Part shown: positions 742 through 5,585 of the stretch, piece by piece
How positions within the stretch are numbered: the first letter of the stretch is position 1
Layout of the letters: the number at the start of each line of letters is the position of its first letter
IMG/VR virus record: IMGVR_UViG_3300031963_000134
Span: 1 to 63,876 of that record
Source of the DNA: a virus
Reading direction: 5' to 3' (one strand)
Length of the DNA stretch: 63,876 bases
Program-made: the position numbers and the translations under genes
The notes under the pieces: generated by a model
Seen by the model: only the letters and a program-made list of their open reading frames with translations
Told to the model about the DNA's origin: nothing
The model's database searches: none

Positions 742-811
742 CATCCGAACGTGAGCCAAACACTCTTAAATGATTAGTCACGGAGCGCTGTCAGCGTTTG
801 GATTATGAATA

Positions 812-949
812 CCTTTGTACTAACCTTCGGGTGAACAGTTGTAATAAGAGTCCTGCGTTAACTACCAGGAACAGTTTGCTACATTGTTTATAATGTAGAC
901 TCTTAAGCCTTTTGAAAGAACAAAGGTGTATTACAACTGAGTGCAAAGG
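812..949 (+). ncRNA. Three-way-junction RNA element, copy 2
   Basis: The architecture matches copy 1. The outer stem is 812-821/940-949 (CCTTTGTACT with AGTGCAAAGG). The small hairpin is ACC-TTCG-GGT at 823-832, capped by a UUCG tetraloop that replaces the unrelated hairpin of copy 1. The inner stem 836-845/930-939 is identical to copy 1. The inner domain is larger and has further helices: 846-851/899-904, 852-855/866-869, 879-885/892-898 and 908-912/922-926. An outer-stem G-U in copy 1 becomes A-U here, a compensatory change. The element runs directly into the large RNA that begins near 960 and may be its 5' domain. Confidence 0.65.
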
Positions 950-959
950 GTATAACTAA

Positions 960-1945
960 TTTTTCTTATTGCATCAATAGTGAGAAAATGAGTCAAGGGA
1001 TACCAGTGACAAAGCTGAAATGCTCACCTTACAGTTTAACTGTATGATAACCAGCTCACTATTAGATGCAATATATTATGGTTCAATACATTAGCTATCC
1101 GGTTAGCGACCGGTATCGTACAGAAGCTGTCTCGCTGACAGCCCGTGGATTATCCTAGTTAAACGTCCCAGAAAGATTGTACTAGGTATGAATTACCCTC
1201 TCGGGGGTAAAGGTCAGCCTTCATGACCTTAAGGATAAACCAGTGATGGTATAAAGTCAATTCCCGTGGTTAGGGGATTGGCGCAGGAGTAATCCTGTCC
1301 ATAGAAAGGTATCGTATTACCTATAACTTGGTGTGCTAGTGACCGAACGGTTGATGCACAGAGTTGTAGAAGTTCCGACAGGCGGGACTTTGAGAGGGAA
1401 ACCTCAATAGAAAATACGATAAGCACTCGCAGTACACCTCGCCAAGGTGGAAACGAGTGCAAGTTGAATGGGTCTTGCTGTGAGAAATCACGTGAGAATA
1501 CCCGCTCGACAGTAAGTAGACTTGGCAGTCGAAAGCAAGGTGGAGTCATAGCTAAACTACTCAAAAGGTAGCATGCTATATGAAGTCTGAACTACTTCAT
1601 CTACCTTCCTGAACCGCTAACAATTTGGTTAGTTACCGAATCTAAGCACAAACGTTCAGACCGTGTCAACGAAAATGCTCTTATTCTGCTGTAATATGCA
1701 GACACCCTACGCTCGCAAAGCCGATGGTGAGAAGAGTGAGTACTATCTCAACTAACAGGAGGCATCTTGTTAACCTCGGCAGAGGAGTTGGTAGGAAAAC
1801 GAATCTATGGCGTTGACATGTTAAAGTCCGGTGAGAACTCTATCTCGCTGAGCATGCTACGTACGTGTAGAAATACATGTGTGTGTAACACGGGGAAACC
1901 TGTAAAAATCGTAGCACAAAGGGTCAACACTCAGCCCTTTAACTG
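960..1945 (+). ncRNA. Large ornate structured non-coding RNA (about 1 kb, GOLLD/ROOL-like in size and setting)
   Basis: No credible gene fits here, but nested helices are dense. An 18-bp helix broken by one bulged A pairs 967-984 with 1055-1073 and encloses hairpin 1030-1044. Further hairpins are 1099-1113, 1126-1142, 1154-1159/1181-1186, 1193-1210, 1211-1229, 1394-1405 (GAAA loop), 1423-1429/1454-1460 and 1617-1632. Long-range helices are 1585-1592/1654-1661 (8 bp), 1664-1671/1811-1818 (8 bp) and 1855-1861/1910-1916, the last enclosing a GAAA-capped hairpin at 1864-1879. A terminal hairpin is 1918-1923/1935-1940. Giant ornate RNAs of the GOLLD and ROOL classes are about 0.5-1 kb and sit beside phage tRNA genes, as here. 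I cannot confirm class membership by eye. I saw no group I or group II intron core. Confidence 0.72.
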
Positions 1946-2631: not shown

Positions 2632-2732
2632 AGTCAGGTGGCGGAATGGTAGACGCTTGGAGGCATCCGAAAAACGGTTTGAGTCCGTTGAAGTCTGGAA
2701 TTGACATACAGGTTCGAATCCTGTCCTGACTA
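2632..2732 (+). tRNA. tRNA-Leu-type gene with abnormal core (possible UGA anticodon)
   Basis: The acceptor AGTCAGG (2632-2638) pairs with CCTGACT (2725-2731), followed by discriminator A. The T-arm is canonical (ACAGG-TTCGAAT-CCTGT), and the D-arm (GCG/CGC with GG) is the leucine type. After the D-arm comes an extra hairpin, TTGGA-ggca-TCCGA. A 5-bp stem with a 7-nt loop (AACGG-TTTGAGT-CCGTT) then follows and would carry anticodon UGA. A short GTC/GAC variable arm comes last. Leucine identity features combined with a serine-type anticodon and an inserted hairpin are unusual. It may be an aberrant tRNA, a decoy or a tRNA-like structure. No CCA is encoded. Confidence 0.5.
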
Positions 2733-2733
2733 C

Positions 2734-2859
2734 AAAGATATGCACTTGAAAAGTGCTGTGAGCAACTCGGAATAGTACGGAACTGGTAATAATTCTAGAA
2801 GCCACTTCTGAGCGAAGTCCTTAGGTTGTATAGGCAGTGGAGCGACACCACATATCTTT
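2734..2859 (+). ncRNA. Small structured RNA between tRNA-like genes
   Basis: A 9-bp closing helix pairs 2734-2742 (AAAGATATG) with 2851-2859 (CATATCTTT). Inside are hairpins at 2742-2756 (GCACTT/AAGTGC), 2804-2818 (ACTTC/GAAGT) and about 2837-2851 (GTGG/CCAC). It lacks the D-loop GG and a TTCRA T-loop, so it is not an ordinary tRNA. It fills the gap between two tRNA-like genes exactly and may be co-processed with them. Confidence 0.45.
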
Positions 2860-2867
2860 TCTAAAAT

Positions 2868-3006
2868 AGTCAGGTGGCGGAACTGGTAGACGCTGCTATA
2901 AACCAAACATAGAAATATGTCTTCAAGGGGAAACGCTGAAACCGTGTTGAGCAATGTGTCTCAAAGTAAGTTACGGTTCATACAGGTTCGAATCCTGTCC
3001 TGACTA
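2868..3006 (+). tRNA. tRNA-Leu-type gene with enlarged, aberrant core (139 nt)
   Basis: The acceptor, D-arm and T-arm are the same as in the gene at 2632 (AGTCAGG with CCTGACT, leucine-type GGCGGAACTGGTAGACGC, ACAGG-TTCGAAT-CCTGT). The middle is about 88 nt and contains hairpins CATA-GAAA-TATG, AACCGT/ACGGTT and TTGAG/CTCAA. ACGCTG occurs twice, flanking a segment of about 37 nt that could be an insertion. I find no convincing 5-bp/7-nt anticodon arm. It is too short for a normal group I intron. It may be a decayed or tRNA-like RNA rather than a decoding tRNA. Confidence 0.4.
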
Positions 3007-3021
3007 CTAAAAATTAAAGTA

Positions 3022-3162
3022 ATGAGAAGTAAGGTTTTTCAAAGAATATTAGATGATATGGATAAAGACCCTTGGTGGGTTAAACTTAAAAGATGGTTTG
3101 TAGTTGAATATTATGTTATTAAATGTTTAGGTTTAATAAAATATTTTAAAAATAGAAAATAG
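3022..3162 (+). CDS. Short basic aromatic protein (46 aa) between tRNA genes
   Basis: The ATG at 3022 opens a 46-codon frame ending in TAG at 3160-3162. The product starts MRSKVFQRIL, contains DPWWVKLKRWF, and ends in a Lys/Arg-rich tail around KYFKNRK. The composition is basic, hydrophobic and aromatic. The central Y-V-I-K-C-L-G-L-I segment could associate with membrane or nucleic acid. The last two bases of its stop are the first two of the downstream tRNA, so processing of that tRNA would cut the message at its end. Function unknown. Confidence 0.5.
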   Translation: MRSKVFQRILDDMDKDPWWVKLKRWFVVEYYVIKCLGLIKYFKNRK

Positions 3163-3255
3163 TCAGGTGGCGGAATTGGTTAGACGCTCGCTTCAAGGTG
3201 CGGTCAGTCAACGAAATGTAAAGCTGACGTACAGGTTCGAATCCTGTCCTGACAA
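3161..3255 (+). tRNA. tRNA-Leu, probable CAA anticodon, with 8-nt anticodon loop
   Basis: The D-arm, class II variable arm (GTCAG/CTGAC) and T-arm are leucine type. The anticodon region reads CGC-TTCAAGGT-GCG, which gives CAA at the usual place after TT. The loop is then 8 nt and the stem only 4 bp including a G-U pair. The first acceptor pair is A-A in place of the A-T of the two sister genes. The discriminator A fits leucine. The 3' end lies two bases before the ATG of the next gene. Amino-acid assignment is by inspection. Confidence 0.65.
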
Positions 3256-3257
3256 CT

Positions 3258-5464: not shown

Positions 5465-5538
5465 GCACCCTTAGCTCAATTGGATAGAGCAACTGCCTTC
5501 TAAGCAGTAGGCTATAGGTTCGATTCCTATAGGGTGTA
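5465..5538 (+). tRNA. tRNA-Arg (anticodon TCT)
   Basis: A complete cloverleaf can be drawn. The acceptor GCACCCT pairs with AGGGTGT (the first pair is G-U). The D-arm GCTC/GAGC has an AATTGGATA loop. The anticodon arm is ACTGC-CTTCTAA-GCAGT with TCT, followed by a 5-nt variable loop and T-arm ATAGG-TTCGATT-CCTAT, with discriminator A. It reads AGA codons, which AT-rich phage genes use often. No CCA is encoded. Confidence 0.95.
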
Positions 5539-5585
5539 CGGTATTTTTTGTTTCTAGCTTACAATAATCGTTCTTTGATTAACCC

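Follow-up and report, generated by a model that had tools for sequence, protein, structure and literature searches.

The viral DNA analysed here (IMG/VR virus record IMGVR_UViG_3300031963_000134, positions 1 to 63,876; hereafter the window, 63,876 nucleotides) encodes on its plus strand, at about 951–1945, a structured noncoding RNA of ~985 nt that is almost certainly a diverged GOLLD relative. Judged by its sequence, the RNA is a new branch of GOLLD and not a new class.

In a permissive Rfam scan, the GOLLD model RF02032 matched positions 1538–1937 from end to end (model positions 1–416 of 416) with 100.3 bits and an E-value of 3.7e-26. The complete 3' domain, the order of its helices and the loops UCAAAAG, CGCAA and CUCAG are shared with GOLLD RF02032/env-38. 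The Rfam model describes only the conserved 3' domain; the 5' domain of GOLLD is less conserved (PMC12286853). The match passes the inclusion cut-off of 1e-5 for RF02032 matches (PMC12286853). Unlike GOLLD, it scores below the gathering score of 150 bits, which is a curation threshold and not a structural feature. Because 150 bits is not reached, we call the RNA a diverged GOLLD relative rather than an Rfam-accepted member, and a score under the curated cut-off is also why a default Rfam scan misses it: that scan returned only tRNAs in the window. The initial annotation had likened the region to giant phage RNAs such as GOLLD and ROOL and proposed comparing it with the Rfam models of both, of OLE and of group I and II introns. 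The likeness to GOLLD held, in the model match as in size and tRNA neighbours. ROOL shares the size, the setting of phage and tRNA island and a presumed cage function, and OLE and the introns are likewise large and highly structured; unlike GOLLD, none of these models matched the window, even with permissive-scan hits admitted to E 10.

Like GOLLD, which is phage-encoded, ~0.8–1 kb long and found near tRNA genes, the RNA consists of two domains, a 5' domain (1146–1537, to which a variable module is added) and a 3' domain. We estimated its 5' end to lie right behind an upstream three-way-junction element and its 3' end past the terminal helix. The features are collected in Table 1.

Table 1 Features of the GOLLD-type RNA and its surroundings (window coordinates unless a contig is named).
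Feature	Position	Strand	Basis
Three-way-junction element immediately 5' of the RNA; may act as promoter, leader or processing signal	809–950	+	Fold z −4.1, recurrence
Whole GOLLD-type RNA	951–1945	+	GOLLD model match, fold z −11.8, covariation
Variable 5' module, including helix 967–984/1055–1073	960–1145	+	Fold, homologue comparison
5' domain, equivalent of the GOLLD cap domain, ~20 helices, many covarying	1146–1537	+	Covariation alignment
5' domain core (model R1)	1306–1464	+	Weak position-matched matches in canonical GOLLD loci
Conserved GOLLD 3' domain, RF02032 positions 1–416	1538–1937	+	100.3 bits, E 3.7e-26
First stem of the 3' domain (1538–1546/1594–1602), inner hairpin, conserved UCAAAAG loop	1538–1602	+	GOLLD match, helices 24–26
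Pseudoknot-type helix 1585–1592/1654–1661	1585–1661	+	Compensatory changes, helix 27
Linker, ~41 nt, without tRNA	1603–1643	+	GOLLD match, homologue comparison
Multibranch domain closed by 1662–1671/1811–1820 (models R2, R3)	1662–1820	+	Covariation, models
Helix 1855–1861/1910–1916 around two hairpins, one GAAA-looped	1855–1916	+	GOLLD match, helix 38
3'-terminal hairpin AAAGGG...CUCAG...CCCUUU	1918–1940	+	GOLLD match, helix 41
Pistol ribozyme in crAss-like relative L480	1793–1852		
Pistol ribozyme in crAss-like relative L481	1321–1380	−	
Pistol ribozyme in crAss-like relative L464	2294–2358		

The region folds far more stably than expected from its composition: the folding energy of 960–1945 was −333.2 kcal/mol, against −265.1 ± 5.8 kcal/mol in 20 dinucleotide shuffles. 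All four long complementarities named in the initial annotation are present in the sequence, and three of them are also conserved in homologues. The exception, 967–984/1055–1073, forms a long helix, interrupted once by a small break, in the predicted fold and is backed by folding energy; it sits in a 5' module that cannot be aligned across homologues. At 1585–1592/1654–1661, GTCTGAAC and GTTCAGAC pair perfectly over 8 bp; five of the eight pairs covary and 98.8% of the cells are paired. Being of pseudoknot type, this helix cannot be drawn in the nested Rfam structure, and it may well be included in the published list of GOLLD stems. The perfect pairing 1664–1671/1811–1818 extends to 10 bp, with covariation in eight of the ten pairs (helix 28), and 1855–1861/1910–1916 is conserved, with five of six pairs covarying. 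The GAAA loops noted earlier were also found, for example GGGAAACC near 1397–1404 and GGGGAAACC near 1892–1900.

We searched viral contigs with patterns taken from conserved GOLLD stretches. These scans gave 24 GOLLD copies, 19 of them above the cut-off; a further 18 followed, none of which reached it. Ten of these, on metagenomic virus contigs, are homologues with both domains of the window RNA (L452–L454, L457–L459 and L462–L465). They share ~75–77% nucleotide identity with it in the matched stretch of the 5' domain and 67–74% in the 3' domain, and they match RF02032 end to end with 83–122 bits. The DNA polymerase family of the window is present in four of the ten contigs (52–58% identity); the other six are fragments without a DNA polymerase gene, and their kinship is presumed from the RNA itself. 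When nine full-length homologues were aligned with the window, 97.9% of pair cells were intact, compared to 33–44% in slid controls, and two-sided (compensatory) changes occurred in 102 of 220 pairs, compared to 44 expected by shuffling. Selection has thus kept ~220 base pairs in the window RNA. A broader set of 20 sequences had two-sided changes in 39 of the 44 pairs of the multibranch domain, in an alignment that was fitted to the model and is therefore biased toward the structure. A model built from the clade scored more distant GOLLDs at 71–98 bits and canonical ones at 17–23 bits, at the expected place.

The 5' domain is preserved less evenly. Positions 960–1145 (~190 nt) differ among homologues: two or more unlike modules occupy this stretch, and no alignment spans the whole set; this variation within the window's clade is a difference from GOLLD, and because of it the cap may differ. 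A covariance model of the 5' core recovers the clade as well as L469, a distant copy (72 bits). With filters off, it also gave 12–18 bits in ~15 of 19 canonical GOLLD loci, which represent few lineages, with a best E-value of 0.026 and each match marginal. These matches lie 66–80 nt upstream of the 3' domain, compared to 74 nt in the window. Because weak matches recur at the matching position, the 5' cores of the window RNA and of canonical GOLLD likely share common descent.

Unlike GOLLD RF02032/env-38, the window RNA resides in a crAss-like phage. This assignment, made in the initial annotation, was borne out by a protein of 4,906 amino acids, an RNA polymerase carrying a DFDID motif. The DFDID region matches 78 phage records, mostly crAss-like by name, at 20–34% identity. 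One match is in Cellulophaga phage phi14:2, to its catalytic RNA polymerase subunit; eight of nine examined records are classified as Crassvirales. The initial annotation knew of no described member in this phage group, and indeed we came across no account of a crAss-like phage with GOLLD in the open literature searched, nor did RF02032 detect a copy in nine crAss-like reference genomes. As far as our tools reach, GOLLD is new for this group. RF02032 matched none of 80 viral records that carry the closest DNA polymerases; of the 50 longest, two yielded very diverged copies with clade-specific models. Another 50 records with the three-way-junction motif gave no match. GOLLD copies are patchy across relatives, and a null scan does not establish absence where a record is a fragment or a copy is still more diverged.

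The RNA was also correctly placed beside tRNA genes: Leu-like tRNA genes lie at 2632–3256 and tRNA-Arg at 5465–5539, and two homologues have a tRNA-Arg(tct) nearby. The three Leu-type tRNA-like genes (2632–2732, 2868–3006 and 3161–3256) have near-identical acceptor and T arms, but their middle parts are irregular. In one of them the anticodon loop apparently has eight bases (ARAGORN anticodon caag), and one is 139 nt long. Between two of them, 2733–2862 is a possible small structured RNA closed by AAAGATATG/CATATCTTT, with a z of only −1.8. Several other phage GOLLDs (L306, L308, L309 and L303, one of them in a 578-kb contig) contain a tRNA inside the linker, which is absent from the window's linker; L308 and L309 sit in large tRNA arrays.

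Another difference from GOLLD is that, in relatives of the window, the RNA borders on a Pistol ribozyme or a three-way-junction element. The latter element (consensus AAUGCACC..CUCACUUCCCAAGGGUGAGCAGUUGUAAU..AUUACAACUGAGUGCAGAGGG) is present twice in the window, at 126–233 (z −6.6) and immediately 5' of the RNA, and lone copies of its 3' strand occur at 468–486 and 492–510. It also lies immediately 5' of the RNA in L458 and L459, and in eight of the ten homologues it lies ~15 nt or less past the 3' end, in a survey that may miss a few copies. Its stem 2 covaries, it has no Rfam match, and it occurs in more than 100 metagenomic viral contigs, mostly with one or two copies per genome. Its candidate roles are promoter, leader and processing signal, and it could also represent a new structured RNA. 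In L480 and L481, which carry a still more diverged GOLLD that Rfam does not detect, a Pistol ribozyme starts ~10 nt or less from the end of the RNA (33.9 bits against a cut-off of 34.5, E 0.003). The Pistol ribozyme of L464 scores above the cut-off (42.1 bits) and lies ~400 nt downstream of the GOLLD-type RNA. The permissive Rfam scan found none in the window. L417 has a hammerhead-like sequence past its three-way-junction element (2710–2795; RAGATH-1 model, under the cut-off), and a stretch like TGCATGAAGTT...CGCCATTCGTGCGAA is common to L417, L464 and L480, in the last two just past the ribozyme. It is a long shot that in this phage group the cage RNA is cut to defined ends by built-in elements: Pistol in some relatives, directly 3' in L480 and L481, and in the others the three-way-junction RNA on one or both sides, which in that case would count as a new processing element or ribozyme in its own right.

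Could the region be something other than a GOLLD? The initial annotation suggested a new class of giant RNA, and the lack of a match at the Rfam gathering threshold and of nucleotide similarity to annotated phage records in a nucleotide search would fit a class unrelated to GOLLD. The end-to-end match of the 3' domain and the intermediate sequences that bridge the window RNA to canonical GOLLD make this very improbable, and, together with the weak, position-matched similarity of the 5' core in canonical loci, led us to reject it. We gave even less credence to a protein-coding region with incidental structure. The longest open reading frame, 111 amino acids on the minus strand at 1229–1564, is the only sizeable antisense frame; it is interrupted by three to six stops in each of the nine aligned homologues, and the 102 compensated pairs contradict a coding function. 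The homologues conserve the helices instead of a protein frame, in agreement with the initial view that there is no credible gene here, and the coding reading was discarded.

What the diverged GOLLD relative does is a separate question. GOLLD env-38, the cryo-EM example, assembles as a closed 14-mer cage with inter-chain bridges B1–B10, and the expression of GOLLD goes up at lysis (PMC12286853). By homology, we infer that the window RNA would be made late in infection and that several identical chains would join through loop–loop and A-minor contacts into a hollow shell made only of RNA, in which the 5' domain would serve as the cap and the 3' domain as the ring, with the short linker enclosed. 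This cage might then hold or organise something during lytic growth; our weakly held guess is that host or phage RNA or ribosomal material would be sequestered. Taken jointly, a diverged GOLLD identity and cage formation are probable. A GOLLD-derived RNA that no longer forms a cage and acts as a single chain or in a complex with proteins, for instance by binding ribosomes, is unlikely, although it carries some weight: the low model score and the variable 5' module fit a loss of the cage, and ribosome binding by GOLLD in pull-downs is cited in PMC12286853. Against it speak the 3' ring domain, which is complete and whose pairing is strongly selected, and the 5' core, which seems to be retained as well. 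Because the linker lacks a tRNA here, the general purpose of the cage cannot be to carry a covalently linked tRNA.

GOLLD belongs to a very small number of natural RNAs known to assemble hollow shells made solely of RNA. That crAss-like phages harbour a diverged branch which default Rfam scans miss suggests that the known set of GOLLDs is too narrow. Within this branch, the ring domain and the 5' core are retained under selection, while the 5' module, the linker and the linker tRNA are free to vary, and naturally occurring copies that lack the linker tRNA speak against delivery of tRNAs as the general purpose of GOLLD.
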